This document shows positions 7,873 through 46,168 of a stretch of 64,000 nucleotides of DNA, in pieces (position 1 is the first letter of the stretch; the number at the start of each line of letters is the position of its first letter). The notes beneath the pieces are model-generated. The model was not told the origin of the DNA, ran no database searches, and was given only the letters and a program-made list of their open reading frames with translations. Source of the DNA: Methanosarcina barkeri str. Wiesmoor (GTDB lineage: Archaea > Halobacteriota > Methanosarcinia > Methanosarcinales > Methanosarcinaceae); the NCBI RefSeq assembly GCF_000969985.1, contig NZ_CP009526.1:4526001-4590000 (forward strand), given 5' to 3'. Both the position numbers and the translations under genes were made by a program.

Positions 7873-8619
7873 TCAATGCCTGTGCTTGAAAAGTTTCTGC
7901 AGACCTTCTCCAAAATCTTCCAGGTCTTTCCGTGCCGGGGTCTGGCGCCTGGATATACTTGACAGGACAGAAAATGCGGCCTGTTTACTCCGGCTAGCTC
8001 CTTTAAGCAGCCCGATTTCGATCATTGCAACTATCAATTCGGAAATAATTTTGCGGTCTCTGGGACTCAGGTTATTCCATGTTTCGTTGATCTTTTTCGA
8101 GGAATCAATTATTGATTCTTTTCCTTCGGATGCTATTGTTGAGGCTTTTGAGGAAGCTACTTTTGAGGCACTAATTATCTGTTTTCTTCCATATGAAGCC
8201 GTTTCCAGAAAGATTTTGAAAGCATTCTCTGAGATCTTTTTTAGTCTTGCTCTGTGATTAATAGGGATCTCCTCTCCCGATGCTTTTCGGAAATCACTTT
8301 CAGAGCCTCGGCTCTCCAAAATTTTACGTACCTCTATAAAGATCTCAATAATCTCTTCCTCAGACCTCGTTTTAAGATATTCTCGGAGTTTTTCCATAAG
8401 GTCCGAGTCAATTGGTTCTGAATACGCTTCATAAGAGGGGCTCGGATCGCGGAAACAGTTTCCATCTATCTCAACGTCATCTACCTCAACGAAATCAGCA
8501 TCAATTATAGGACTGGATCCAAAGATAGCTTCACGTGATGAAGCCTTTCTGGATTTGGATTTATTCCGAATCCTGAACCCTGCATCTGAAAGTCTGTCGA
8601 ATACTCTGTCTTTAAGCAA
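7873..8619 (-). CDS. Hypothetical helical charged protein
   Basis: A 248-residue protein starting at a TTG (MLKDRVFDRLSDAGFRIRNK); GGGGTG about nine bases upstream supports this start. It is rich in Ser, Lys, Glu and Arg, with an acidic stretch (IIDADFVEVDDVEIDGN) and long predicted helices (LREYLKTRSEEEIIEIFIEVRKILESRG; LSPRDRKIISELIVAMIEIGLLKGASRSK). There is no signal peptide and no cysteine motif. It is convergent with the VWA gene, with under 100 bases between the stops. The opposite frame here (7829-8257) is Phe/Ser/Leu-rich with no family feature, so the minus-strand frame is preferred. I do not recognise a family. Confidence 0.7.
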   Translation of the reverse strand: MLKDRVFDRLSDAGFRIRNKSKSRKASSREAIFGSSPIIDADFVEVDDVEIDGNCFRDPSPSYEAYSEPIDSDLMEKLREYLKTRSEEEIIEIFIEVRKILESRGSESDFRKASGEEIPINHRARLKKISENAFKIFLETASYGRKQIISASKVASSKASTIASEGKESIIDSSKKINETWNNLSPRDRKIISELIVAMIEIGLLKGASRSKQAAFSVLSSISRRQTPARKDLEDFGEGLQKLFKHRH

Positions 8620-8863
8620 GAAAATGCACCCCTGCTTGAGAATAAATGCCTTCCCTCTTAAAACAAAAAACTTTACTTGCGCGGAAATAATTAGTAGTCA
8701 GCAACTTTAGTATCAACCCTCTGTTAAATATAAGGTTAATTTAATTACCCGCGTATTAATTTTACTATTAACTTATTACCTATCAGGAATTTAATTTTGA
8801 GACTTGATATCTTTTTCTGTTTATTTCTTTTCAGGTATCCTCTTCATATTGAGTGGAAATCCT

Positions 8864-9049
8864 TTAATTTTCACTCAATGAGCTTTTTTCTCTGATTAGT
8901 TGAACCAGAGATGGCATCTCAAACGTACTGCCGACTCTATAACATATGTACTGATATGCACTTATCCCCAGTTTCTTTGCCGTCTGAACAATCGTCATAA
9001 ATGTATCATTTGCCTTTGTTCCTTCCTCTGTTATGGTTTGAAAGCTCAT
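8864..9049 (-). pseudogene. Probable transposase C-terminal fragment
   Basis: A 61-codon frame reads TEEGTKANDTFMTIVQTAKKLGISAYQYICYRVGSTFEMPSLVQLIREKS. This pattern (xxxTxxxTAKKLGIxxYxYIxxR followed by PSLxxLI) looks like the extreme C-terminus of DDE transposases of the IS66-like kind. No upstream catalytic region remains, so I read it as debris rather than a gene. The family assignment rests on pattern memory only. Confidence 0.45.
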
Positions 9050-9503
9050 ATCCCTATTTTAATATTTTTCATGGTCCTGCTACCCCTTTTGTCAGAATGA
9101 AACTTTAGGGACTAAGTTACGAATTATAGGCTCCCTTGCCTGTACATATTTGTCATTTTTATATGGAAATTTATAATATCTTCAGTAATTTCAGAATTTG
9201 ACATTATTTTCAACATTAAATGAATAACTGATCCACAGTTAATTAATTGTATTATGCAAAAGCAGCCTTAAGGAATCTTCTCTTAAGGTATCTCATGGCC
9301 CTGTTTCTCTGCATGCTAAGAACCATTGGATATCGATTTGTATTGGTAGCAGTCAAAATATATCCCTTTTAGTTGACACCTTCAAATCTGGCTCCTCCTT
9401 ATTTTCAGAAGGACCACTCAAAGTTATTAACTTACCATTATCTGTTTCTTATTCATGATTTGAGATTTTCGATCCTTTCGCATACCCCCAGAATAACTGC
9501 ATT
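9050..9503. other. Intergenic region with possible gene debris
   Basis: No complete gene. On the minus strand about 9230-9345 there is a start-less frame of some 40 codons ending NRAMRYLKRRFLKAAFA and a stop, which looks like the tail of a decayed gene. I cannot name it. Confidence 0.4.
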
Positions 9504-16551: not shown

Positions 16552-17985
16552 TTAATTTAAAAACTGACATACTTCCCACGCAAACTGTGGAGAAGTTTTT
16601 TTTCTGGCTGTACGTTTACTGAAGATAGTACGATCCAGGACCCGTCGAGGGGTATCAGTGCTCCCTTCCCCTGCATCTCTTTCTGCAGAGAATTGACCGC
16701 TGCCTTTTGGCGTCAACGCTATATTAAAGGCGGCATTGACATCGGCATGGTCAACGTGCCCGCAGTGTGGACACTCAAATTGCTTGCTGTGTCGGTTGCC
16801 TATACGTCCGCAGCGGCTGCATTTTTTGCTAGTCGCATGGGGATCAATATAAACTACCTCTACTCCTTGCAGCCTAGCTTTGTATTCAATAAACTGTTGA
16901 AGTTGCTGAAAAGACCAGCTGTTCAGGGAGTATTCGCCTGACCATGATTGTTTTTCTAGTGTGTTTTTACTTTTGAGAGAATTTTTGTTAATTCCCTTAC
17001 TTCTATTTTTGTCCCTATCTTTTTCCCTTTTTCTGTTTTTATTTTTCTTGCCTTTTCCTGACTCTCCAATCTTGCTATTGAGTTTCCGCATTCCTTTAAG
17101 GTTTTCCAGTTTGATCCCACATCCGTTATACAGGGCAACATCCACAATCTTTCGGCTGATTTTATGGTTCAAGTCCTTTACAATATTTTTTTCCCTAATT
17201 TGTACAGCTTTTAATTCTTTACTTCTGCCCAGTTTATAGAGCCGCTTTTTTATGTTTTCGTATTTTTTATGCGTATGGTATCGCATTTTTCCTAACTTCC
17301 AGATTTTTCCGGATTCGGGATCCGCTACAACTGCAATATGTCCTTTAGTATTGCGATCAACTCCTATATAGTGTTCGGACCTTTTGAGCTCGTCGTCTGG
17401 GAAGACAACTGCTACATAAGCATAGATGTTATCGATTTCTATCTGGGAAATTTTTGTAAAGTTGTTGGAAAAATGATAGTTCAGCAGAAGTTTCAGACAG
17501 GGAATTGTAATGGTTCGCTCCTTCCTGTCAATACGGACCGCCCGCGAAGGAATGATCAATTTAACATTCTTTGCAGATTTAAAGTCCTGGTTTCGGGAAT
17601 ATTTTTTGAGAATCTGGCCGGAAATAACTGACTTTAAGCCTATATGCTTTACATCTCCAGGAGAAAGAGATTCAGATACAGGAAGTGAATTAGGCGCAGA
17701 CAGAGAACCGGGAGAAGGAAGAGAAGAAGAAATAAGCGGAAAGTCCTGAGAAAACTCAGAATAAGTAGAGAATGAGGATGAAGGAGAAGAGGGAAGAGAA
17801 GAAACAGATTTTTGTATGGGAGGCGAGTTAAGGCTTCGGTTTTGAGTCTGATGCTTAATACAGAACTCCGCAACCTTTCGAGCCTTTCGGAGTTCCTCTG
17901 AAAAATTTCGATTGTGCTTGATTTTATAAGTAAGTAACATCCGGGTTATTGCTCCACGGTCATTATCCGTTATATTTTTAGCCAA
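16552..17985 (-). CDS. tnpB: TnpB-type RNA-guided nuclease (IS605 OrfB / IS1341 group)
   Basis: A 477-residue TnpB. The RuvC catalytic residues are all present: D210 (IGVDRN), E294 (IKLENLKG) and D415 (DHADVNAAFNIA), with a zinc ribbon C389/C392...C405/C408 between the last two. TnpB nucleases cut DNA guided by an RNA made from the transposon right end. No tnpA is nearby, so it is an IS1341-like solitary element. Unusual features: a Ser/Pro-rich insertion (about 52-110) after the N-terminal helices and a Lys/Arg/Asn-rich insertion (about 310-345) after the RuvC-II Glu. The listed start is TTG without a ribosome site; ATG at residue 16 (MLLTYKIKHNRNFS) matches the usual family start and is the likelier one (17940). 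Confidence 0.9.
   Translation of the reverse strand: MAKNITDNDRGAITRMLLTYKIKHNRNFSEELRKARKVAEFCIKHQTQNRSLNSPPIQKSVSSLPSSPSSSFSTYSEFSQDFPLISSSLPSPGSLSAPNSLPVSESLSPGDVKHIGLKSVISGQILKKYSRNQDFKSAKNVKLIIPSRAVRIDRKERTITIPCLKLLLNYHFSNNFTKISQIEIDNIYAYVAVVFPDDELKRSEHYIGVDRNTKGHIAVVADPESGKIWKLGKMRYHTHKKYENIKKRLYKLGRSKELKAVQIREKNIVKDLNHKISRKIVDVALYNGCGIKLENLKGMRKLNSKIGESGKGKKNKNRKREKDRDKNRSKGINKNSLKSKNTLEKQSWSGEYSLNSWSFQQLQQFIEYKARLQGVEVVYIDPHATSKKCSRCGRIGNRHSKQFECPHCGHVDHADVNAAFNIALTPKGSGQFSAERDAGEGSTDTPRRVLDRTIFSKRTARKKTSPQFAWEVCQFLN
16572..16595 (-). other. Right-end hairpin of the tnpB element (possible omega-RNA 3' structure)
   Basis: On the minus strand, CTTCtCCAC pairs with GTGGGAAG around the loop AGTTTGC (one bulged base). 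It lies inside the last codons of tnpB, where IS200/IS605-group elements carry their right-end hairpin and where the guide-RNA scaffold of TnpB ends. The element boundary and guide would lie at lower coordinates (about 16440-16560). Position and shape are seen; function is inferred. Confidence 0.45.
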
Positions 17986-33863: not shown

Positions 33864-34559
33864 TTAAGCCTTCGTCTCCTTTAGTTTTCTTACTTGCGAG
33901 TCGGTAAGCACGTCAAGCCTGACCATCAAATCGCCCTTTGCCTGCAGCACGTACTTGAAGAGCAGAGTGATCAGCGAAGCTTCGAGGATCGCAAGTGGGA
34001 TCTGGGTAATCGCAAAAACGCTCAGGAACGCTACGAGTGAACCTTCAACACCTCCGGGGTTCGCCGGAAAAGCCAGTGCAAGCTGCGTTGAGGTCACAAC
34101 GTACGTGACCCAATCTGCCAGGGTTGCTGTTACAAAAGCTGACACATAAAAATTAACGTTCAAACGCATCATGGTTTTATATATGGCATAAGCAACAAAG
34201 GGTCCTATGATCCCCATGGACATTAGGTTCGCCCCGAAAGTCGTAATTCCTCCGTGAGCCAAAAACAAAGCCTGGTAAAGCAGGACAATTGCAGAGAGCA
34301 CTGATGTTATTGCAGGCCCGAAAAGTATGACTGCCATCCCGGTTCCGGTTGGATGAGAAGTACTGCCGGTAACCGAAGGCAGCTTAAGCGATGATAACAC
34401 AAAAATAACAGCTCCTGATACAGCGATCAGAGGCAGCACTTCAGGTTTTTCTTTCACCAGCTTGTTCAGCCGGAAAATTCCATAAGCAAATACCGGTATT
34501 GAGAGTATCCACCAGATCTGCCACCAGGGACCCGGAAGGAAACCTTCGAATATGTGCAT
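33864..34559 (-). CDS. cbiM: CbiM, substrate-specific (S) component of the Co/Ni importer
   Basis: A 231-residue membrane protein. The mature N-terminus MHIFEGFLPGPWW is the CbiM/NikM signature, where the N-terminal Met amine, His2 and a later His co-ordinate the metal. Here TSHPTGTGMAVILFGP carries the inner His. Several hydrophobic helices follow. Nickel (coenzyme F430, hydrogenases, CODH) and cobalt (corrinoid methyltransferases) are both essential in Methanosarcina, and the sequence does not tell which is transported. It is the first gene of a six-gene minus-strand unit that has an operator-containing promoter (34621-34672). Confidence 0.95.
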   Translation of the reverse strand: MHIFEGFLPGPWWQIWWILSIPVFAYGIFRLNKLVKEKPEVLPLIAVSGAVIFVLSSLKLPSVTGSTSHPTGTGMAVILFGPAITSVLSAIVLLYQALFLAHGGITTFGANLMSMGIIGPFVAYAIYKTMMRLNVNFYVSAFVTATLADWVTYVVTSTQLALAFPANPGGVEGSLVAFLSVFAITQIPLAILEASLITLLFKYVLQAKGDLMVRLDVLTDSQVRKLKETKA

Positions 34560-34620
34560 ATATTATCCAACACTCCCCATTCATAGATTCCCATCATGTC
34601 GTTATATGTCAAATTTAGTT

Positions 34621-34672
34621 GAGTATATATAAAGTAAACTTTATATTAGTTGAGTATATAAAGTGAACTTTA
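34621..34672 (-). promoter_or_regulatory. Promoter of the cbiMNQO unit with two palindromic operators
   Basis: Two copies of the inverted repeat TAAAGT-N2-ACTTTA lie at 34630-34643 (centre AA) and 34659-34672 (centre GA), 29 bases apart, each next to GAGTATATA. On the minus strand each gives a CTTTATATA(TA) archaeal TATA box, so a bound repressor would block TBP. The proximal TATA is about 65 bases before cbiM. The likely regulator would sense nickel or cobalt; its identity is unknown. Confidence 0.6.
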
Positions 34673-34749
34673 TTTAGCGCTTCTAATTAGGTTTACTGAA
34701 ATTTTAAACAAATTTATTTTGCTTTTAATTTCCTTTTCCTGATTTGAAA

Positions 34750-34940
34750 ATAATTACTTTGGGAAAATTATAATGAATAATTACTTTGGGAAAATTATAG
34801 TGGATAATTACTTTGGGAAAATTATAATGGATAATTACTTTGGGAAAATTATAGTGGATAATTACTTTGGGAAAATTATAATGGATAATTACTTTGGGAA
34901 AATTATAGTGGATAATTACGTGGGAAGAATTACTTGGGAA
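34750..34940. repeat. 27-nt tandem repeat, 6 copies plus a degenerate one
   Basis: Units of ATAATTACTTTGGGAAAATT plus ATA(A/G)TGG start at 34750, 34777, 34804, 34831, 34858 and 34885, with a decayed copy at 34912. The A/G position alternates strictly, so the array behaves as a 54-nt dimer repeat. The plus strand is open (NYFGKIIVD/MD peptide), but without a ribosome site I do not call a gene. The array separates the two operons of the metal island. Confidence 0.9.
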
Positions 34941-35040
34941 AAATCAGGAATGCGTCAAATCATAAACAGAATTCAAAGACCCATTTGTTCAAAGACCCAT
35001 TTTCGCAAAAATAGAGTACCGTTTTTTAGTAGATTCGGGC

Positions 35041-35220
35041 TCACTCTACCAGGGTCATGGGTTTGCCGCAGCATTTGAATTCGTTGATTTCGCAGCAGCC
35101 TTCACTTTCACATGTTTTGTCACACTCCCTTACAACTGTCAATTCAAAACTGCAGTCATCACAGACAAGTTTCTGTCCTTTTTTCAATTCAAAGCATTTC
35201 TTATGTAAGTGGTGAACCAT
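35041..35220 (-). CDS. Cys-rich single-module desulforedoxin-like protein
   Basis: A 59-residue protein with one module: CFELKKGQKLVCDDCSFELT, then VVRECDKTCESEGCCEINEF and KCCGKPM. It aligns with each half of the two-module proteins at 35240-35590 and 29883-30224, except that the usual CxxCG has Ser (CDDCSF). GGAGGGTAA precedes the ATG. It starts 19 bases after the stop of the upstream paralogue and surely shares its mRNA. Metal binding is inferred from the Cys pattern. Confidence 0.85.
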   Translation of the reverse strand: MVHHLHKKCFELKKGQKLVCDDCSFELTVVRECDKTCESEGCCEINEFKCCGKPMTLVE

Positions 35221-35239
35221 TTCTTACCCTCCGTTCCCC

Positions 35240-35590
35240 TTATACTTCTTTCCTGATAAGTTTCATAGCCTTGCCGCAGCACATCATTTCAGTTACGTCA
35301 CAGCAGCCTTCCTTCTTGCAGCTCTGATCGCATTCATCCACGACCTCCACCTTGAAACCGCAGTCGTCACAAATAAGAAAGTCTCCCTTCTTCATCTCGT
35401 AGCAGCGAGCATGCTGTTTCAGGGCCATTGGTTTGCCACAGCACATCAATTCTTCTACATCGCAGCAGCCTTCTTTCTTGCAGCTCTCGTCGCATTCCTT
35501 TGTTACCATTACTTCGAATCCACAGTCATCACAGTAAAGGGAATCTCCCATTTTCATTTGATAACACCTGAGGTGTGTATGGTGTACCAT
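35240..35590 (-). CDS. Cys-rich protein with two desulforedoxin-like modules
   Basis: A 116-residue protein with two modules, each CYxMKxGDxLxCDDCGFxVxVxxECDxSCKKEGCCDVxExMCCGKxM. The halves are close duplicates of each other. CxxCG and CCG pairs match the desulforedoxin iron site; the inserted ECDxSCKKEGCC adds four or five thiols. The N-terminus (MVHHTHLR) contributes histidines. AGGGGGA precedes the ATG. A good TATA box lies about 90 bases upstream (35681-35692). It leads a two-gene unit upstream of the cbiM operon on the same strand. Possible roles: metal storage or chaperone, redox protein, sensor. Confidence 0.87.
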   Translation of the reverse strand: MVHHTHLRCYQMKMGDSLYCDDCGFEVMVTKECDESCKKEGCCDVEELMCCGKPMALKQHARCYEMKKGDFLICDDCGFKVEVVDECDQSCKKEGCCDVTEMMCCGKAMKLIRKEV

Positions 35591-35680
35591 AATGTCCCCC
35601 TATTTTGAAAAATTGTATTAAAGTGTTCTAAACTTAGCACTTTGAGTAAGGTCTATATTATTATTAAATAGATATTATAA

Positions 35681-35692
35681 TTATATATAAAG
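35681..35692 (-). promoter_or_regulatory. TATA-box promoter of the Cys-rich gene pair
   Basis: On the minus strand CTTTATATATAA matches the archaeal TATA consensus. Initiation about 25 bases downstream would leave a leader of roughly 65-70 bases before the ATG at 35590. Confidence 0.5.
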
Positions 35693-35854
35693 AGGGAAAT
35701 GGCTAAAAATCGTTAGCCTTAGAGCTAATATAAAACATAAAACTTTAAATAGGTAAGATAAATGCAGTTCTCTAGATCCTTAAACCATGCGGGAGAGAAA
35801 AAGAAGCGTAAGACTCTTGAACTGAAAAAAGATACATAAAAAATATTTTCCTGG

Positions 35855-35905
35855 GAAAATATTTGTATGGAGAAAATATTTGTATGGAGAAAATATTTGT
35901 ATGGA
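35855..35905. repeat. 17-nt tandem repeat, 3 copies
   Basis: GAAAATATTTGTATGGA occurs at 35855, 35872 and 35889, flanked by partial copies (AATATTTTCC before, AAAAATATCC after). Located just beyond the stop of the DGC gene. Confidence 0.85.
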
Positions 35906-35934
35906 AAAAATATCCCTGGATTAACACCAGGTTT

Positions 35935-36309
35935 TCATAACTTGTCTGCAAGTTTTTCCATGATCTCGCTGACCAGAGAGTCGGAGATGTTCATTTCTCT
36001 GTTAAGTTTCATCCCGAGTTCCTTTGTGAGGATGAGGTGACAATCTGTCTCAAAACCAGCTCTTCGTAGCATTTTCATCGAGCAGTTGAAATCACAGCCA
36101 TCGATCGCAATTATTTTGTCACAGCGGGTCGCAGCAATTAGAAAATCCGAACGCTGGGATCCAATTCCTGCCGTGCACTTGAAGGTACCAAGGCCTCTAT
36201 TTTCCATTTCAATTCCCAGGCGGGTTGAAAGCTGTCCAAGGTTCGTGGCACCTGCACAGGGAAATATCAATACAGTGCCGTTTTCTGATGATGATTTTGA
36301 TTCAGACAT
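35935..36309 (-). CDS. DGC-domain putative zinc-binding protein
   Basis: A 124-residue protein with the pattern IFPCAGATNLGQLSTRLGIEM, then FKCTAGIGSQRSDF, RCDKIIAIDGCDFNCSMKML. The single IDGC...C motif defines the DGC family, thought to bind a metal through its conserved cysteines. ATG at 36309, with AAGG upstream, is favoured over a TTG three codons earlier. It neighbours the metal island but has its own spacing, so a functional link is only suggestive. Confidence 0.8.
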   Translation of the reverse strand: MSESKSSSENGTVLIFPCAGATNLGQLSTRLGIEMENRGLGTFKCTAGIGSQRSDFLIAATRCDKIIAIDGCDFNCSMKMLRRAGFETDCHLILTKELGMKLNREMNISDSLVSEIMEKLADKL

Positions 36310-36463
36310 AGCGTTCAAAACCTTCGTTTGTTTTTATAAAAAACGCAGTATGTCTCATATCCACTGAAGTATATAACACTCAAGAAACAGCTAATGCTTA
36401 TTATTCAAATCATTAATGAACCGACAAAAAATAGAAAGGAGGGAGAAAAGTTGATGGAAATTA

Positions 36464-37480
36464 TCAGAACCACTGGTCTAGGGTCTGCTGCCTCCCCCTG
36501 GATACTACCTTCAGACGTTCTACGGCTTTTTTCACTCTATCCACAGAGAAGTCGTTTTCCTTGCAAAGGAATTTGATGAGTTTTTCGGAATCAGGTTTGC
36601 CCCACTTGATTTCATAGTCATCCGTAACATCAGGATGAGTAAAAAGTTCCCTGATTCTGTCCAGTTCTTTGATTTCCACCCCTTTTTCTCGGAGTACGGC
36701 ATGGATGTCTCCATGCTTTTTAATCAGTTTAAGGGCTGTTTTGGGACCCACTTTTTCCAATCCTTTGTTAAAATCGGTACCGACACAAATTGCAATATCA
36801 ATAAGTTGCTCCCTATTTATTCCCAGAACTCCCAGTGTCTCTTCCAGTTCAATCAATTCAAGTTCGACATCAACATACACATGCTTTCCAGGGAGCTTGC
36901 GCTTGCCAGTGACAGCAAGATTGCGGATGACAGTCGGAGCTCCGAAAAGGAAAGAATCGTAGTCCTGGGAAGCAACATAATCGGCATCTTTTTTAAGGAC
37001 CATATGGGCAGCCTGCGCCTCTCCTTCACAGGGAGCCTGTATCCACGGAATGCCCATTATGCTGAGGAGGTATTTGGAATCTTCAACAATTTCCTGGTCA
37101 ACCTTTGAAGAAGCCTGAGCATATTTATAAGCGGCTTCAAGATCCCCTTCAACTTTTGCATTTTCCCATTTTTCCAGTGAAGATTCTCTAACTTCTTTCC
37201 TTCGGTTCAGGGTCTCAGATTTCAGGTCTGGAGGCTTACCATCAAAAATGAAAACAGGTTTGATGCCAACTTCAATCAGGCTCGCTGTCCTGTAGAGCAG
37301 GCCAGAGAGGTGAGACGTCACTTTCCCGCGTGAATTAACCAGAGGATTTCCATCCCGCTGGCGAATAATACTCAAAAATTGGTGCAGCGTGTTAAACGCA
37401 TCAATTGCAACCACCTGATTTGTAAGATCCGAAAGCTCAATTTTTCTTTTCTGGAGCAGGTCGCCTATATCTGTGCCCAT
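36464..37480 (-). CDS. fen: Flap endonuclease 1 (FEN1)
   Basis: A 338-residue structure-specific 5' flap nuclease for Okazaki-fragment maturation and base-excision repair. The N-terminal domain begins MGTDIGDLL with [12 protein letters not shown]; the internal domain holds the acidic cluster [12 protein letters not shown] and [13 protein letters not shown] helix-hairpin-helix follows ([42 protein letters not shown]). The C-terminus QQTLDQWF is a PCNA-binding PIP box. Length and order are exactly those of the archaeal family. ATG start. Single gene. Confidence 0.97.
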
Positions 37481-37805
37481 ATTTTTCCCTCGAGTGTCTG
37501 AAATTTACCAGAAAAAAGTAGCTTTTTCACTACCTTCCTTCCCTTTCATTACTTTCCTTCTTAGTCTTTTCTTTCTTCATTTCTTTAGTTCTTTCTTTCA
37601 ATTTCCAACTGTTATGCGGAAAGCCAATATCAAGATACTTTACTGCAGGTCAATTTCAAAACGCTTTGCAGCAGGTTAATATCGAAGAAACTTTACAGCA
37701 ATTATGTGATTTATTGCTCAATACGCTTTATAGATACTGAAGTCTTATATTTACCGCGTGTTCAGAGTTATCCTGAGATACTTATCGATGAATATACACT
37801 GTTGA

Positions 37806-38315
37806 AAGGCAGTACTACTCAGAAGGAATTCTGAGCACAAAACATATTCAGGTGAACTTCCAGATGGTATAAAGGGCGAATTTGGTAATGGAATCAAATC
37901 TCTGATAATCACTTTTAACCATGTTGCTAATGTTTCAGAGCCAAAAATACATGAATTTCTGGAAAACATTGGTGTTCATATATCTAAAGCCACTATTTCT
38001 CGAATCTTGACAAAAGATATTAATATTTTTCATCAGGAGAAAGCTGAGATTTTCCTGGAAGGACTTAAAGCTACGCCTTATCAGCAGATAGATGATACAG
38101 GTGCAAGAGTCAATGGTGTCAATTATTATACTGAGATTCTTTGTAATCCTGATTATACTGCTGATTTTACAGTTCCCAATAAGAATCGGGAAAACATTTT
38201 AGATGTGCTTTTATGTGGAAAAGAAAAACGTACTGCTTTGTCCCGCGCCCAGCGCGGCTGGAACATAAAAGCCCTGATAAGCGAGAAAAGCAAAAAAATC
38301 AAGGGCATTGTTTAG
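37806..38315 (+). pseudogene. Decayed DDE transposase (internal fragment)
   Basis: A frame closed by stops on both sides reads LPDGIKGEFGNGIKSLIITFNHV, later IGVHISKATISRIL and ATPYQQIDDTGARVNGVNYYTEILCN, ending in VPNKNRENILDVLL. The QIDDTGARVNG block carries a catalytic-Asp motif of a DDE transposase common in Methanosarcina. N-terminal and C-terminal parts are missing, and the sequence after about 38215 (TALSRAQRGWNIK...) no longer fits, so the fragment is probably spliced to other DNA. Confidence 0.65.
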
Positions 38316-38354
38316 AGCTGAAACGAGTTTCTGTCAGTTATTATAACTTTATTT

Positions 38355-38693
38355 TTATTTTTCTGTCGGTCGGCCCCGAAAATCCGATTCAACTTTTATA
38401 ACTATCCGCCTGCAAACCTCGTCCATCAGTTTCCAGTAATCTTCGACCTGCCGGTAGATTTCTTCTGCAACTTCCTCAAAATTAACGTGCTCAGCAACGT
38501 GCCTAATCTCTTCTTTCTCGTCGATCATTTCAAGTACCTGAACCGTTTATTCTTCATCTATGAGCCCGACCTTGAAAACCATTTTCATGCAGGACTTTGG
38601 TGACCCACAGGCAAATCCTTCATGGACAAAGAGATAATCTTTTACGAGTCTCCAGAAAATTTCTACGCTGTGATTGGAAACTGAGCGACTAAC
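38355..38693 (-). pseudogene. Decayed HI0074-type HEPN protein (MNT/HEPN module partner)
   Basis: Minus-strand coding reads SVEIFWRLVKDYLFVHEGFACGSPKSCMKMVFKVGLIDEE, a TAA (38547-38549), then TVQVLEMIDEKEEIRHVAEHVNFEEVAEEIYRQVEDYWKLMDEVC. This is the nucleotidyltransferase substrate-binding (HI0074) family, a HEPN protein that pairs with a minimal nucleotidyltransferase as a toxin-antitoxin module. The in-frame stop, the altered NRTSH region and the missing N-terminus show decay. No MNT gene is present. Confidence 0.65.
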
Positions 38694-38787
38694 ATCGTAC
38701 ACATAGCAACATAGTAAATATCCAAAAAAATATTAACATAAACCGAAAAAAGACAGTAGATTTCTTTTTCTTTATAGGTTGGTTGGA

Positions 38788-40155
38788 ATGATAGAAGAAG
38801 ACATATTAGAATATTGTAACAACAAAATTTACGAATATTCAGGAACTGGAGAGTTATTATTTGAAGATGGACAGAAATTCGATTGTGAGTTTGTAGCTTT
38901 CCAAATGAAAAATGGTAAGATTCTGTTTCATGCAAAACGTTGTCGATCAAAAATCCAACAATATTCTTCTCCTAAAAAAGGATACTGTCGCGCAAGTTTT
39001 GTGGGAGTTACTGATAAAAAATATAAGATTTCTGGAGAAAATGGCCTTATAATACATATTGAATCAGTAAATGATGAAAGGTCTATTACATGCTCTTTTG
39101 AAATACTGAATGTGCAGATTTTAGAAAATGAGAACAAAAGAGAAGTTCACTTTGGTATTACAAACTTCGAATTCACAGGAAACGAATGCAATGAAAGAAT
39201 TTTAACTCTTAACCTAAAAGAGTCAGCAAGAATATCAATCCAAAAGTTGCAAGCTTATAAAAAAATAATGAGATGGATTAAAACATTTAGATCCATAGAT
39301 GTAACTTGTGAAGCTATATTTAACTTGTCCGAAGAAAAATTTGAAAACACAATAGAAATTCTTGACAATTTACTTTATGCTATGTCGATTGCAAGAGGAA
39401 CAAAAATCCAATGGATATATTATGAAATTTTTGACGATAAAGAAATTTGTATTTCAAGAGTGCACTCATCCTCCAGAGTGACAAAAGTTTATAGTTCGTA
39501 TAACCTTATTGATCCTAAAGATACAAATTCAACAAAAATTTTCCTAGAGAATGCAAAACCAATTTTTGGTGAAAAAAACAAACTCGTGGAACCAATGAGA
39601 GAACTAATAGACTCTCACCTCGACTCACTTATTCCAGGAGTTTATTTGGAAACGAAAGGAGCCAACCTTGGAATAACAATGGAAATGTTAAAAGAAAGTT
39701 TTATAAGAACCGCTGAAAAAGATGGAATAAATAAAGAAAATATACTCACTGAAGAAAAATTTAAAGAGTTGGAAAAGTCAATTAAGAAGTGTATTAAATT
39801 TGAAGTTAAAGAAAAAGAGAAAAGAGCTCTTATGTATAAAAACTTAAAGTCTATTAATAGAAGACCCTTCAATACTTTAATATCAGATTTTTGTAAAGAA
39901 ATAAACTTTGAGGTCAATGAAGATCAGGTTCAACTTTTTGTTAAATGTAGAAATAAGCTTGTACACACAGGGAATTTCTATTGTAGATATGCTACTGAAG
40001 ATAAAGAAAGATATCCACAATTAAAAGATGAATTATCCGAATACCGCTTCTTAGTCGACTTTATAAATAAATTGCTTTTAAAATCATACGGATACAAGGG
40101 TTTTTATCTTGATTGGAGTTCTACTGAAGGGCCAGTATGCAAAGAACTAGTGTAA
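38788..40155 (+). CDS. HEPN-domain protein, candidate ApeA-like defence nuclease
   Basis: A 455-residue protein. The C-terminal region contains FVKCRNKLVHTGNF: Arg388-x4-His393, the catalytic RNxxxH motif of HEPN ribonucleases, in a helical domain. The N-terminal ~150 residues are beta-rich (YEYSGTGELLFEDGQKFDCEFVAFQMKNGKILFHAK), a layout seen in ApeA-type abortive-infection proteins, though I cannot prove homology. Codon use is very A-rich compared with the neighbouring GlyRS gene, and the gene sits between decayed transposase/HEPN genes and a housekeeping gene, which fits transfer. Start: ATG at 38788; an in-frame TTG lies three codons upstream. No recognised ribosome site. Confidence 0.7.
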   Translation: MIEEDILEYCNNKIYEYSGTGELLFEDGQKFDCEFVAFQMKNGKILFHAKRCRSKIQQYSSPKKGYCRASFVGVTDKKYKISGENGLIIHIESVNDERSITCSFEILNVQILENENKREVHFGITNFEFTGNECNERILTLNLKESARISIQKLQAYKKIMRWIKTFRSIDVTCEAIFNLSEEKFENTIEILDNLLYAMSIARGTKIQWIYYEIFDDKEICISRVHSSSRVTKVYSSYNLIDPKDTNSTKIFLENAKPIFGEKNKLVEPMRELIDSHLDSLIPGVYLETKGANLGITMEMLKESFIRTAEKDGINKENILTEEKFKELEKSIKKCIKFEVKEKEKRALMYKNLKSINRRPFNTLISDFCKEINFEVNEDQVQLFVKCRNKLVHTGNFYCRYATEDKERYPQLKDELSEYRFLVDFINKLLLKSYGYKGFYLDWSSTEGPVCKELV

Positions 40156-40392
40156 GTCTGAAAGAAATAAAATTTCACTTCTTTTGACTCATAAGTCATT
40201 ATAGGTCATTTATACTGACTTCGTTTTAGGCCAACAACTGCACACATTTACATTTATAAACCCAAAACCTCTCCAACTGACTCAGAGCAGTGCAAATTTA
40301 ATATAATGACACCTTTATCCATCTAGTATTTCCTACAAATCAAAATTACAATTATCTGAGATCCCCTAATCAATTTCACGAGGATTTTTAAA

Positions 40393-42216
40393 ATGGACAC
40401 ATACGAGAAGGTATTCGAGCTGGCTAAACGCCGGGGGTTCTTATGGAACTCCTTTGAGCTGTATGGCGGAAGCCGCGGATTTTATGATTATGGGCCTCTT
40501 GGGAGCACATTGAAGAGGCGGATCGAGCAAACCTGGAGAGAGTTTTACGTTATCCAGGAAGGGTTTATGGAAATCGAATGCCCGACAATCGGGATCGAGG
40601 AAGTCTTTATTGCATCCGGGCACGTTGGAGGTTTTTCGGACCCTCTGTGCGAATGCATGAACTGTAAAGAAGCATTCCGGGCCGATCACCTTGTAGAAAA
40701 CGTAATGGAAGCTGCGGGGACCCTGAGTGCAGAAGAACTCACTAAGGTTATAAAGGAAAACGATATCCGATGCCCGGAGTGCGGTGGAAAATTCGGCGAC
40801 GCCTATGAATTTAACCTGATGTTCAAAACCACAATTGGGCCCGGCACTGGAAGACAGGGATACCTCAGGCCGGAGACAGCACAGGGTATGTTTGTCGATT
40901 TCCAGAGGCTGTCCCGCTTCTACAGAGACAAGCTGCCTTTTGGAGCCGTACAGATCGGGAAATCCTACAGAAATGAAATCGCACCCAGGCAAGGTGTAAT
41001 CCGTCTCAGAGAATTCACACAGGCCGAGTGCGAGATTTTCGTTGACCCACGCAACAAGAAACACCCCAACTTCGAACGTTTTGCAGACAGAGAACTTGTA
41101 CTCTATTCCCAGAAAGCACAGGAGAAAGGCGAACCTTTCAGGATGACTGTACGGGAAGCTGTAGAGACCGGAGTTATTGCACACGAAGTCCTGGGCTACA
41201 ACATTGCACTTACCAATGAGTTTTTGACAAAGGTTGGAATTGATCCTGCAAAACTCAGGTTCAGACAGCACCTGAAAGACGAAATGGCGCATTACGCAAT
41301 CGACTGCTGGGATGCTGAGATCGAGACCGACCGGTTCGGCTGGGTCGAGATCGTGGGAATTGCCGACAGGACGGATTACGACCTTAAAGCTCATGCAAAG
41401 GTTAGCAAGACCGAGCTTTATGTGTATGTCGAATACGACGAGCCGAAGATGGTAACTCGTTTTGTTGTAAAGCCTAACATGGGCAAGCTCGGGCCTCTCT
41501 TTAAGGGCAAGGCAAAAGCTGTCGCAGATGCCTTAAAACAGCTTTCCGAAAAAGAACTATCAAAGGATGAGATAAAAGTTACCGTGGACGGAGAAGAGTT
41601 TACAGTCGGTTCTGATGCGGTGGACTTTGCGGAGGAAACCGTTAAAGTCAGTGGAGAAAACGTCACTCCTCACGTAATCGAGCCTTCTTATGGGATCGAC
41701 AGGATCTTCTACGGTGTTATGGAGCACGCCTATGACGAAGAAAACGTGGCTCAGAAGGTTGCCGAATCCGAGCTTAAAGGCACAGAAGAAACTGAGAAGG
41801 AATCCGAAGCCGGAAAGGGGGAAAGTGAAACTGAGGGAGAAGAGGAAGCCCGTCTCGTCATGCACTTTTCAAGCGCAGTTGCCCCGGTACAGGTTGCAGT
41901 CCTCCCGCTTCTGACCCGCAAAGAGCTTGCAGACCCTGCAAAGGATATCATTGTAAAACTCAGGGAAAAGACCCTGCTTGTCAATTATGATGATTCCGGA
42001 ACCATCGGGCGTCGCTACAGGAGAAACGATGAAATCGGAACGCCTTACTGTGTTACTGTAGATTACGATACCCTCAAAGACGGGACTGTAACTATAAGGG
42101 ATAGAGATTCCATGCGCCAGATCCGAGCTCCGGTAAAAGGTATCGAAAACGTGCTCTATGAACTTATTTACAGAGGCAGAAATTTCGAATCCGCAGGCAA
42201 GCCCTTTAACTTCTAA
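40393..42216 (+). CDS. glyS: Glycyl-tRNA synthetase
   Basis: A 607-residue class II synthetase of the alpha2 archaeal/eukaryotic type, which charges tRNA-Gly. Visible: motif 1 region RGFLWNSFELYGGSRGFYDYGPLGS, zinc site CECMNC with CPECGG, motif 2 IGKSYRNEIAPRQGVIRLREFTQAECEIF, motif 3 EPSYGIDRIFYGVMEHAY, and the C-terminal anticodon-binding domain (VAPVQVAVLPLL). Between motif 3 and the anticodon domain (about 455-487) is an acidic Glu/Lys/Ser-rich insertion. It is longer than the ~570 residues usual in archaea because of this insert. Single gene, ATG start after CGAGGATTTTTAAA. Confidence 0.97.
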   Translation: MDTYEKVFELAKRRGFLWNSFELYGGSRGFYDYGPLGSTLKRRIEQTWREFYVIQEGFMEIECPTIGIEEVFIASGHVGGFSDPLCECMNCKEAFRADHLVENVMEAAGTLSAEELTKVIKENDIRCPECGGKFGDAYEFNLMFKTTIGPGTGRQGYLRPETAQGMFVDFQRLSRFYRDKLPFGAVQIGKSYRNEIAPRQGVIRLREFTQAECEIFVDPRNKKHPNFERFADRELVLYSQKAQEKGEPFRMTVREAVETGVIAHEVLGYNIALTNEFLTKVGIDPAKLRFRQHLKDEMAHYAIDCWDAEIETDRFGWVEIVGIADRTDYDLKAHAKVSKTELYVYVEYDEPKMVTRFVVKPNMGKLGPLFKGKAKAVADALKQLSEKELSKDEIKVTVDGEEFTVGSDAVDFAEETVKVSGENVTPHVIEPSYGIDRIFYGVMEHAYDEENVAQKVAESELKGTEETEKESEAGKGESETEGEEEARLVMHFSSAVAPVQVAVLPLLTRKELADPAKDIIVKLREKTLLVNYDDSGTIGRRYRRNDEIGTPYCVTVDYDTLKDGTVTIRDRDSMRQIRAPVKGIENVLYELIYRGRNFESAGKPFNF

Positions 42217-42354
42217 AAATTAAAAACTGGTAGTTCCTGAGCTGTGGGCTAAAAAGCCTGCAGCAAAGTTTTTAGTTTTTTATGTTTATTAAAATTAAAT
42301 TAAAAAATTGAATTAAAAATCTGAAACGAATAGCCTCGGATAAATTAATCTGGA

Positions 42355-42480
42355 ATAAATTAATCTGATCTGAAAATCTGAAATAAATTAATCTGATCTG
42401 AAAATCTGAAATAAATTAATCTGATCTGAAAATCTGGAATAAATTAATCTGATCTGAAAATCTGGAATAAATTAATCTGA
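42355..42480. repeat. 28-nt tandem repeat, 4 copies plus a partial
   Basis: ATAAATTAATCTGATCTGAA plus AATCTG(A/G)A starts at 42355, 42383, 42411 and 42439, with a partial copy at 42467. It ends about 20 bases before the hef start codon and thus lies in its leader or promoter region. Confidence 0.9.
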
Positions 42481-42501
42481 AAGAAACGATCCTGAAATAG
42501 A

Positions 42502-45318
42502 ATGAACGAGAATCTTTTTTCTGAAAAACCTGGGTTCATGAAGCACCCGCTGATAAAACCCAATACCGTTGAGCAGAGGCTATATCAGTTGAATCTTGCT
42601 GGAAAGGCACTCGAAGGATCAAGCCTTGTTGTGCTTCCTACTGGGCTTGGAAAAACCATAATAGCTCTTTTTGTAATTGTTTCCAGGCTTCAGCGTTTCG
42701 GGGGAAAAGCGCTGGTTCTTTCTCCAACAAAACCGCTTGTTGAGCAGCATGCGGCTTTTTTCAAAAAAGTAATGGCTCTTCCTGAAGATAAAATTCTCAC
42801 TTTTACGGGCAGCATTGCGCCTGCAGAACGTGAAAAACTCTGGGCTCAGGGGGAATTGATAGTATCCACTCCTCAGGTGATTGAAAACGATCTTCTTACA
42901 AAAAGAATCAGCCTTGAAGATGTAACCCACATAACCTTTGACGAAGCCCACAGGGCAGTCGGAAATTACGCTTATACCTTTATTGCGGAAAAATACTTCG
43001 AAAGCGCAAAAAACCCTCATGTGCTCGGAATTACTGCAAGCCCTGGAAGTTCGGACGAGAAAATCTCTGAAGTCTGCCAGGCTTTGCACATTGAAAATGT
43101 CTCGGTGAAAACTGAGAAAGATAAGGATGTCCGTCCTTATGTGCAGGAAAAAAAGATAGAATGGTTTCAGGTTCAGCTTCCTTCCGAAATGGCCGAAATC
43201 CGGGGCTATCTGGAAAAAATTTTTGATGACCGGCTTGTAACCGTAAGAGATTTGGGTTTTTCAGTAGGCAGCAGGAAATATGTCTCTAAAAAAGACCTCT
43301 TGCTTCTCCAGAAGAAACTGCAGGGTGAAATCCGGATTGGAGGTGACCCTGCAGTTTTTACTGCTATGTCTGTACTTGCGGAAATGTTGAAGGTGAATCA
43401 CGCCGTAGAAATGATTGAGACTCAGGGGCTTGAGCCCCTCAGGAAGTACCTGGAGAAACTTGATGCTGAAGCCTCTTCAAACAGTGCAAGCAAGGCTTCA
43501 AAAAGACTGATGGACGATCTCTACATGAGAAAAGCCCTTTACAGAGTAAAGGAATGCGAGGTCGAACATCCAAAACTAGAGCTTGCACGAAAACTCGTAT
43601 CCAAACAGCTAAAAGGAAGTCCTGATTCCAGAGTAATTGTTTTTACGAATTACAGGGACACAGCAGAGATAGTGGTAAATGCCCTCTCAGAAATTCCAGA
43701 AATTGTCCCTATCCGTTTTGTAGGGCAGGCCTCTCGCCGTAAGGACAAAGGGCTTACGCAAAAACAACAGGTGGAAGTTCTTGATAAGTTTAGAGCAGGA
43801 GAATATAACGTACTTGTAGCTACCTCAGTTGCTGAAGAAGGGCTTGATATCCCTTCAACAGACCTGGTATTATTCTACGAACCCATTCCCTCGGAAATCC
43901 GGAGCATCCAGCGTAAAGGCCGAACAGGCAGACAGCATAAAGGTAGAGTCATTATACTTGTAACAAAGGGTACACGCGATGAAGCCTATTACTGGAGCAG
44001 TAAGAGCAAGGAAAAAAGGATGCTAAATAGTATGCACGGGCTTGAAGCTCTTCTGGACCCAAAAGACTCAAAGCAGGGTTTGAAACTTTCAGACTTTGAG
44101 TCCAAAGCTTTTATTCCGGCTGATACACAGAACGAAGCTGGAAATGAGACTAAAATAAATAACAGATTCGAAAATGCTAATATAACGCAGGAAAATCAAA
44201 ATCCGATGCAGAAAAGCAATGATCTTGATGTAAATCTCAGTGGTTTTGTAAACAGCAGGGGCAAAGCTGTAGATAGTAACGTTTTTGCAGATAACAAGGA
44301 TGAGGCTGTAGATAGCAGTAGTTTTGCAGACATCGGAGACAGGGCTACAGATGTTAGATATTTAGCTGCAGACTGTGGGGATTTAACTGTAGGCAGCAGG
44401 GATATGGGGACAGGGTCAGACTACAACAAGGCGAATGAAGAAATTAACGAAGAGAACTGTGGGGTCGGAAAAGAAGAAGAAAGAAAGAAGAATCGGAGTT
44501 GGAAAGAAAGCGAAAAAGGAAAAGAACAAAAGAATGAAGAAAAAAGCAAAGAAGAAAACGTAAAAGAAAGACAAAAAACTTTTGTCTATTTTGAAACTCT
44601 TTCTGGAAAGAAAACGGAACTCACACCTGAAACTGCTGCAGAAGTATCCAAAATAGAAACAAACTCCGAATCCCCGAAAATAGTAGTGGACTTCAGGGAA
44701 GCAAAAAGCGGGGTTGCAAATGTTCTCGATAAGCTTGGAGTAGAAGTTATTTTTACCACGCTTGAAATTGGTGATTACGTTGTAAGCGACCGCCTTGCCG
44801 TGGAGAGAAAGCGCACGGATGACTTTGTAAACTCTCTTGTTGATGGAAAACGAAATCTTTTTGCACAATTATCGGATCTTACAAGAGTATATCAAAAGCC
44901 TGTTCTTATTATTGAAGGAACAGAACTTTTCACTTCAAGGCAAATCAACCCTAATGCTATTTACGGCTCCTTAATATCCATTGCTATTGATTTTGGAGTG
45001 TCACTATTATATTCAAGAGATGAAGAAGAAACTGCTGCAATTTTAAAAATGCTTGCAAAGCGTGAGCAGATAGGAAATAAAAGAGAGGTCAATCCCCACG
45101 GGAAAAAGTCAGCAAGTACCCTTCCCGAGCAGCAGGAATACCTGGTATCCGCGATCGCAGACATCGGGCCGAAAGCTGCAAGAAACCTTCTTTTGCACTT
45201 TGGCTCAGTAGAGGCTATTATGAAAGCTGATGCCAAAGAACTCAAGAAAGTAAACTTAATAGGACCAAAAAGAGCAACAAAAATTAGAGAACTCATTGAG
45301 GCTCCCTATAAAGGATAA
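42502..45318 (+). CDS. hef: Hef helicase/nuclease (XPF/FANCM family)
   Basis: A 938-residue fusion acting on stalled forks. The N-terminal SF2 helicase has LPTGLGKT (Walker A), the DEAH box in ITFDEAHRAVG, and motif VI QRKGRTGRQHKG. The C-terminal XPF-type nuclease has GDYVVSDRLAVERKRTDDF (ERKxxxD). Tandem helix-hairpin-helix motifs close the protein (IADIGPKAARNLLLHFGSVEAIMKADAKELKKVNLIGPKRATKIRELI). The linker (about 545-705) is unusually long, polar and repetitive, rich in Asp/Gly/Lys/Glu, likely unstructured. ATG after GAAAGAAACGA. Monocistronic. Confidence 0.97.
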   Translation: MNENLFSEKPGFMKHPLIKPNTVEQRLYQLNLAGKALEGSSLVVLPTGLGKTIIALFVIVSRLQRFGGKALVLSPTKPLVEQHAAFFKKVMALPEDKILTFTGSIAPAEREKLWAQGELIVSTPQVIENDLLTKRISLEDVTHITFDEAHRAVGNYAYTFIAEKYFESAKNPHVLGITASPGSSDEKISEVCQALHIENVSVKTEKDKDVRPYVQEKKIEWFQVQLPSEMAEIRGYLEKIFDDRLVTVRDLGFSVGSRKYVSKKDLLLLQKKLQGEIRIGGDPAVFTAMSVLAEMLKVNHAVEMIETQGLEPLRKYLEKLDAEASSNSASKASKRLMDDLYMRKALYRVKECEVEHPKLELARKLVSKQLKGSPDSRVIVFTNYRDTAEIVVNALSEIPEIVPIRFVGQASRRKDKGLTQKQQVEVLDKFRAGEYNVLVATSVAEEGLDIPSTDLVLFYEPIPSEIRSIQRKGRTGRQHKGRVIILVTKGTRDEAYYWSSKSKEKRMLNSMHGLEALLDPKDSKQGLKLSDFESKAFIPADTQNEAGNETKINNRFENANITQENQNPMQKSNDLDVNLSGFVNSRGKAVDSNVFADNKDEAVDSSSFADIGDRATDVRYLAADCGDLTVGSRDMGTGSDYNKANEEINEENCGVGKEEERKKNRSWKESEKGKEQKNEEKSKEENVKERQKTFVYFETLSGKKTELTPETAAEVSKIETNSESPKIVVDFREAKSGVANVLDKLGVEVIFTTLEIGDYVVSDRLAVERKRTDDFVNSLVDGKRNLFAQLSDLTRVYQKPVLIIEGTELFTSRQINPNAIYGSLISIAIDFGVSLLYSRDEEETAAILKMLAKREQIGNKREVNPHGKKSASTLPEQQEYLVSAIADIGPKAARNLLLHFGSVEAIMKADAKELKKVNLIGPKRATKIRELIEAPYKG

Positions 45319-45319
45319 A

Positions 45320-45440
45320 TGACGGAAAAAGTAACGAAAAAAGTAACGAAAAAAGTCAAATTTCTCTAGACTTTTTCTTTTCTTTCCTTCCTTACTCTCT
45401 TCTGTTCTATATTTTTTGTTTTTTCATATTTTCGTAATCT
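45320..45440 (+). terminator. Pyrimidine-rich terminator region of hef, with a 12-nt repeat
   Basis: After the hef stop, GAAAAAAGTAAC-like units repeat about three times (45324-45358), followed by a long T/C-rich tract (45361-45440, several runs of five or six T). Archaeal termination uses such T tracts without a hairpin. Function is inferred from position and composition. Confidence 0.4.
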
Positions 45441-45487
45441 ATTGACTTCTTTTTACTCTTTTATTTCTGGTCTTTTTACTCTTACCT

Positions 45488-46168
45488 TTATAACTGCCTC
45501 AGGCGTTCTATAAGCCCAAGCCCTTTTCCAATTAATTCTAAATCCTCGGCAATCCTACGTGGGTCTGTTTCATCCTGAAGGCAATTTGCAATGTTGACCA
45601 TCTTTCTAAAAAGAAGGTCTTCCAGTACTTCCCGGTCTCTATGGACTCCGGCTACCTTTGATAATGCCGCAGGTTTTTCTTCTCTTTCTGAAGGTGCGGC
45701 CTGGACTACAGGAGCTTCAGGAACTTTAGATGAAGAAACTGTATGAGATACAGGAACTGTAGGAGCTCTATGAGCAGCAGGGGTTCTTCTTGATTCTTCT
45801 TTTTCAGGAGGTAATACAGGAATTTCCTCTTCTATAGTCTCGAGAGCTTTTTCCTCTTCTTCGGCAGTTTCAGAGGCTTTCATCCCGAATCTTGATTTTT
45901 GCCTGTGTGCCTGGACTCTCTTCTTACTCTCAAAAGAAGATTTGTCTTTTTCTGTAGACGGCGTGGGTTCAGGAGCCTGAGCCTGGACTTCCACGGCTGG
46001 TTCAGGAGCTTCCCTCTCTTCCTGAACATCACATATAGGACAGATTACTCTACCTTGATAGCGGAATTTTGGAGCTCCGCAGACTTTACAATGCTCAGCA
46101 AGCATTGTGCCCCCTAGTTCAAGGAAGCGGGCTATTCGCTTTACTTTTTTATCTTTTTCAGAATCCAT
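45488..46168 (-). CDS. Zinc-ribbon protein of the Sjogren/scleroderma autoantigen 1 (p27) family
   Basis: A 226-residue protein. The N-terminal zinc ribbon reads IARFLELGGTMLAEHCKVCGAPKFRYQGRVICPICD (C-x2-C...C-x2-C), the defining element of the autoantigen p27 family found in most euryarchaea. A Pro/Glu/Ala-rich disordered middle and a C-terminal helix (LEDLLFRKMVNIANCLQDETDPRRIAEDLELIGKGLGLIERL) follow. ATG at 46168 with GGAAGGT upstream is chosen over a start 16 codons earlier. The function is unknown. Divergent from the UPF0147 gene. Confidence 0.85.
   Translation of the reverse strand: MDSEKDKKVKRIARFLELGGTMLAEHCKVCGAPKFRYQGRVICPICDVQEEREAPEPAVEVQAQAPEPTPSTEKDKSSFESKKRVQAHRQKSRFGMKASETAEEEEKALETIEEEIPVLPPEKEESRRTPAAHRAPTVPVSHTVSSSKVPEAPVVQAAPSEREEKPAALSKVAGVHRDREVLEDLLFRKMVNIANCLQDETDPRRIAEDLELIGKGLGLIERLRQL

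Follow-up and report, generated by a model that had tools for sequence, protein, structure and literature searches.

A divergent ApeA-like HEPN protein encoded in a variable slot upstream of the GlyRS gene of Methanosarcina barkeri

The 64,000-nucleotide stretch of Methanosarcina barkeri str. Wiesmoor DNA that was analysed, referred to here as the window, carries upstream of its GlyRS gene an open reading frame on the + strand (38788-40155) that begins with ATG, has zero internal stop codons and encodes 455 aa. Its GC content is 29-31% as against 48-50% for GlyRS, in agreement with an earlier note on this DNA that had described the base composition of the two genes as unlike. The features of the locus are as follows.

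37806..38315, + strand: fragment of a transposase-like gene, dead; a partial piece whose ORF piece has no Pfam match
38355..38702, - strand: decayed HI0074-type (NTase_sub_bind) HEPN gene, N-truncated, with one in-frame stop
38690..38787, + strand: upstream non-coding stretch, near-identical in G178, with a sharp left edge to the fossil
38788..40155, + strand: CDS for the ApeA-like beta-domain/HEPN protein, 455 aa, with a 95% aa ortholog in G178
38824..39642, + strand: N-terminal beta-rich domain, residues 13-285, from an AlphaFold2 model, with the element order of a true ApeA_NTD1 protein
39646..40086, + strand: C-terminal HEPN domain, residues 287-433, from a sub-cut-off HEPN_Apea match, profile-profile comparison and a helical bundle in the AlphaFold2 model
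39949..39966, + strand: predicted RNase active site R388-N-K-L-V-H393, with invariant R and H at a helix-end position
40244..40392, + strand: conserved GlyRS leader, right border of the variable slot

The earlier note had placed the gene by itself in a decayed neighbourhood, beside a dead transposase and a dead HI0074-type HEPN gene, and this description held in each part. The transposase-like gene survives as a partial piece, and its other genomic copies are likewise broken. The pieces of the HI0074-type gene in the window match Pfam weakly (E 0.036), and a homologous fragment in another Methanosarcina matches PF08780 with an E-value of 9e-22. No recognised defence gene lies beside the window copy, only these fossils. 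The idea that the HI0074-type fossil belongs to the same cargo as the ORF was rejected, as the fossil occurs in species that lack the ORF; it is an older resident of the site.

The slot between the fossil and GlyRS (window 38690-40392, compared at sites L092-L102) is hypervariable in Methanosarcina. Its right border, the GlyRS leader, is conserved: 30 Methanosarcina genomes were compared, and nearly all show 79-93% identity, with only shorter matches in the most distant ones. In G166, where the ORF is absent, fossil-side DNA directly adjoins the leader, and in G161 and G175 the two are separated by ~100-210 bp, compared with ~1.6 kb in the window. The cargo found in the slot elsewhere differs and includes a HerA-type operon with a DUF6884 gene, HepT/nucleotidyltransferase pairs, a pentapeptide-repeat ion channel and a CAAX-protease-like gene. 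A clean left-right insertion with a target-site duplication was sought at the window site and none was found. Adjacency of FEN1 and GlyRS was also considered as ancestral synteny that the insertion had disrupted, and discarded, FEN1 being absent from the 5.7-16 kb around GlyRS in 12 other Methanosarcina.

Comparison with the G178 ortholog gave a dN of 0.022 and a dS of 0.087 over the ORF, with zero frameshifts, and the resulting dN/dS of ~0.25 indicates that the ORF has been kept functional under purifying selection. Since dS between the same two genomes is 0.17, 0.35 and 0.42 along GlyRS, the gene block dates from later than the DNA flanking it. Upstream of the ORF, positions 38701-38800 are identical at 100 of 100 bases apart from small indels, and leftward of 38701, in the fossil, identity to G178 is 81-86%. 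A recent exchange of the ORF together with its promoter would be the simplest reading of this jump in identity and of the dS values.

Three further features were seen in the window. An ORF at 16552-17985 has a TnpB/IS605-like C-terminal zinc-finger region, read from the sequence (CSRCG...CPHCG, DVNAAFNI). The ORF at 34773-35078 opens with head-to-tail repeats of 9-10 residues (NYFGKIIVD/NYFGKIIMD) and is probably tandem-repeat DNA rather than a gene. Tandem repeats of the AATAAATTAATCTGATCTG type occupy 42330-42490, just upstream of a Hef-like helicase gene.

HEPN domains are metal-independent RNases whose active site reads Rx4-6H, the residue that follows the arginine being N, D or H, and sits at the end of helix 3 (PMC3710099). 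The C-terminal RNKLVH of the window protein, taken in the earlier note for a HEPN RNxxxH site, satisfies this rule, including the polar residue after R. The motif alone is weak evidence, because R[NDH]xxxH arises by chance in 3.2% of shuffled copies of the protein. R388 and H393 are, however, invariant in 18 of 18 aligned family members, with no other column invariant, which at the sequence level is strong evidence for a HEPN motif. The AlphaFold2 model (pLDDT 83.4, pTM 0.81) places the motif where a HEPN site is expected, at a helix end and loop start: the C-terminal domain consists of helices spanning 287-433, and RNKLVH (388-393) closes helix 378-394. The separate beta-rich N-terminal half that had been proposed earlier is also seen in the model, with strands at 13-153 and 172-227, and is presumed to act as a sensor or inhibitor.

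Direct searches with the window protein returned little. The sole match in a Pfam scan was HEPN_Apea (PF18739), at E 0.0022 and 18.8 bits against a cut-off of 24.4; PADLOC Cas13-ApeA gave E 0.067, below its cut-off; NCBIfam gave zero matches; and ApeA_NTD1 (PF18862) gave nothing at E <= 5 for the protein and nothing at E <= 0.001 in G000. No match to a non-defence enzyme was found. Sequence searches of the PDB, whether by the protein itself or by family profiles, returned no convincing match, and viral contigs, plasmids and phages searched with the window protein gave zero matches. When plasmids were searched with two relatives, one found a weak, HEPN-only Burkholderia match and the other none.

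Of 31 Methanosarcina genomes, only 2 have the gene at this locus (the window and G178, 95% identity), which refutes its universal presence there. Homologues of 35-37% and 26-28% identity were found at another locus of the Methanosarcina genome G174 and in one Methanococcoides genome, respectively, and a profile built from these four sequences finds relatives phylum-wide. A 14-member profile detected relatives in 17 of 238 genomes from the class, Methanosarcina accounting for 9 of the 17, and the loci are scattered. The family is patchy and not a core gene. Such a distribution speaks against a housekeeping or regulatory RNA-processing enzyme, as do the high divergence of the family and the AT-rich, recently exchanged state of the window copy; RNA processing is the role of some HEPN proteins, Las1 and RNase LS among them (PMC3710099), but we regard this explanation as extremely unlikely here.

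Two further groups of HEPN genes were observed. A subfamily of 543-572 aa with RHxxxH replacing RNxxxH (L127:5737-7380, L129:5807-7435, L130:6079-7794) has, in each of three Methanosarcina genomes, the same 742-770-aa gene as its neighbour; it seems to be a stable family branch with more vertical inheritance. The other group is another HEPN family from Methanosarcina (L038:451-1833, L040:1420-2769), a pair that is 61% identical and carries RNYLVH; in profile comparison it matches the window family (E 9e-7) and does not match true ApeA.

The relation to ApeA was examined with a set of 12 proteins from the same phylum that have a strong ApeA_NTD1 match, all of which also match PADLOC ApeA and PDC-S58. 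Aligned by hhalign, the 14-member window family and true ApeA matched with an E-value of 1.4e-12 over 348 collinear columns (71-433 of 469), compared with 0.24 for a full-length control with reversed target. The HEPN halves alone gave 8.3e-8 against ApeA HEPN with 14 members (reversed control 0.16) and 9.4e-10 with 18 members. For the N-terminal halves, 14 members matched the ApeA_NTD1 alignment at 1.4e-5 over 193 columns (shuffled controls 0.31 or worse); with 18 members the match shrank to the last 94 columns, in the second half, at 4.7e-4, and with the three closest sequences only there was no match of this domain to ApeA. Homology of the N-terminal domain to that of ApeA is not claimed as settled, because the four added members weakened the match, which then left out the first ~170 residues.

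The window protein and a true ApeA_NTD1 protein were each modelled with AlphaFold2 from its own alignment, and the two models agree in the order of their elements: strands, a long helix (185-203 in the window protein, 192-210 in true ApeA), two strands, and C-terminal helices (246-433 and 257-432), the motif lying at the end of the same helix in both. Aligned by secondary structure, the N-terminal domains scored 240, whereas 25 element shuffles scored 129 +/- 47 with a maximum of 205. The kinship to ApeA put forward in the earlier note is thus borne out by the family profiles and by the order of elements in the models; at the level of single-protein profile searches it was not, HEPN_Apea falling below its curated Pfam cut-off and ApeA_NTD1 being unmatched. 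The window protein is a divergent sister lineage built like ApeA, not a strict ApeA.

A structural search with the window model gave no significant PDB match. One 222-aa viral model matched it at E 4.4e-4. For the window and the true ApeA models alike, the top PDB folds repeatedly include Hcp and tail-tube proteins, at E-values of ~0.01-0.3, none significant alone. These modelled folds suggest that the window protein and ApeA may carry a tail-tube-like sensor domain. A more specific proposal, that the ApeA-type N-terminal domain is a tail-tube/Hcp-like decoy barrel which would co-assemble with viral tail-tube or ring proteins and so bring the HEPN domains together and switch on the RNase, seems very doubtful to us.

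The neighbourhoods of relatives bear on function. A type IIG restriction-modification (R-M) gene is the immediate upstream neighbour, in the same orientation, of the relatives in G379 (51 bp away) and G383 (77 bp away). In G184 an N6-methylase gene, judged to be type IIG by its N6_Mtase match and sequence, lies 283 bp upstream, also on the same strand. A type ISP R-M gene is found within 2.5 kb of the relative in G186, with a terminase gene nearby, and a type III R-M near the relative in G458; in G168 a remnant of the HEPN gene adjoins BREX, and in G370 a Fic gene is nearby. Many relatives are solitary, in ordinary surroundings. Proximity to R-M was evaluated by the presence of a single marker family, N6_Mtase, no more than 5 kb away, using per-genome counts made by hand from hit lists. 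The first genome set, where the pattern was first noticed, had 3 cases against 0.28 expected (P 0.003), the hold-out set of 11 later genomes had 1 against 0.22 (P 0.20), and the combined 26 genomes had 4 against 0.5 (P 0.002), a value driven by the first set. Because that set is not free of selection, the R-M linkage is supportive and not conclusive.

These associations argue against reading the protein as a stress or maintenance toxin, that is, a HEPN RNase restrained by its own N-terminal domain and freed by physiological stress, sitting in a toxin-antitoxin hot spot and serving no dedicated antiviral role. The R-M genes directly upstream of three relatives, the BREX, ISP or type III R-M genes near others and the kinship with ApeA, a reported defence protein (PMC7699616), all weigh on the other side, and no adjacent nucleotidyltransferase or other antitoxin gene accompanies the window copy (no minimal nucleotidyltransferase gene is found among the ORFs of window 34000-46000). 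The toxin reading draws on the MNT/HepT pairs that occupy the slot in other Methanosarcina, on the window copy having neither R-M nor CRISPR genes as direct neighbours and on the many solitary relatives; overall we judge it rather unlikely.

Two other settings were observed among relatives. In two haloarchaea (L086:6861-7997, L090:4400-5536) a DUF4238 gene lies directly downstream of the HEPN gene, and its product is a possible partner of the HEPN protein. In a Methanococcoides genome (G098, L078:918-9677), an ApeA-like HEPN gene (7916-9283, - strand) adjoins a casposon-like Cas1/family B polymerase set, and beyond the HEPN gene 115 nt of the polymerase 3' end recur in inverted orientation. 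Terminal repeats were sought for this casposon-like element and none could be delineated; the HEPN gene is possibly casposon cargo.

One may also ask whether the gene serves competition between mobile elements, excluding rival viruses, plasmids or casposons, and not host immunity. The Methanococcoides arrangement, the terminase gene near the G186 relative and the recent exchange of the window block would all agree with cargo of this kind. The window copy, however, has no intact mobile element around it, and in two species the gene, at a chromosomal site, shows purifying selection; we find this account quite improbable.

We therefore favor, with a probability of roughly two in three (0.66), a model in which the ORF product works alone as an ApeA-type effector with two domains, a solitary abortive-infection RNase. 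The N-terminal beta-rich domain (~13-285) would keep the protein inactive and sense an infection cue, while the C-terminal HEPN domain (~287-433) would be a metal-independent RNase acting as a dimer via R388 and H393. Infection by a virus or other mobile element would release the RNase, which would cut RNA and stop the cell or the element. The gene would travel between Methanosarcina lineages and be retained in the variable slot upstream of GlyRS. We infer the RNase activity, dimerisation, sensing and antiviral role of the window protein, the antiviral function being drawn by analogy from its relatives. N-terminal domains of the Abi type have been proposed to sense viral components and restrain the toxin (PMC3710099).

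Little has been charted of archaeal immunity outside CRISPR and restriction. In a 2026 survey nearly a third of archaeal genomes had no other detected system, and many single-gene candidates were reported in archaea (PMC12988326). The present family is a concrete case that current defence models miss despite its ApeA-like layout, the PADLOC ApeA models giving a convincing E-value for 1 of the 14 members scanned, and its alignment could seed a detection model. The archaeal protein encoded at the locus is related to a known defence protein, and it is divergent, unmodelled and apparently functional. Methanosarcina has workable genetics, so the function of the family is directly testable.

Among known systems, MNT-HEPN (HepT/HI0074) toxin-antitoxin pairs have the HEPN fold in common with the window protein and are common at the same slot in other Methanosarcina, but they combine a small HEPN protein with a paired nucleotidyltransferase, and the window protein has neither. 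HEPN_RiboL-PSP (PF18735), a name covering PD-T4-2, PD-T4-5, PD-T7-3 and ApeA (PMC10952713), matches three family members weakly (E 0.0015-0.05, all below the cut-off) and leaves the window protein unmatched. ApeA (PF18862 plus PF18739; PADLOC Cas13-ApeA/PDC-S58), reported as an anti-phage system with HEPN domains (PMC7699616), is likewise a single gene of 450-500 aa with a beta-rich N-terminal domain, a long helix, two strands and a HEPN domain with Rx4H at a helix end. It differs in that the window protein lacks an ApeA_NTD1 match and reaches HEPN_Apea and PADLOC ApeA only below threshold, reads YSGTGELLFED where the true ApeA N-terminal domain starts with GxWW (in alignment A3, G8 is invariant and W10 nearly so), and lacks the YHRR present after the conserved glutamate in true ApeA proteins. 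Tha, a solitary HEPN system of staphylococcal phages, compared here by its description, is also one gene with a C-terminal HEPN domain bearing RNxxxH, RNase activity and an abortive outcome (PMC11087260). Its N-terminal part has no confident fold, unlike the well-predicted beta domain of the window protein, and it has a known trigger, a phage tail protein. Tha is a precedent for a one-gene HEPN system set off by a phage protein (PMC11087260), and by analogy the window protein fits the sensor-plus-HEPN scheme of Abi, Tha and ApeA.
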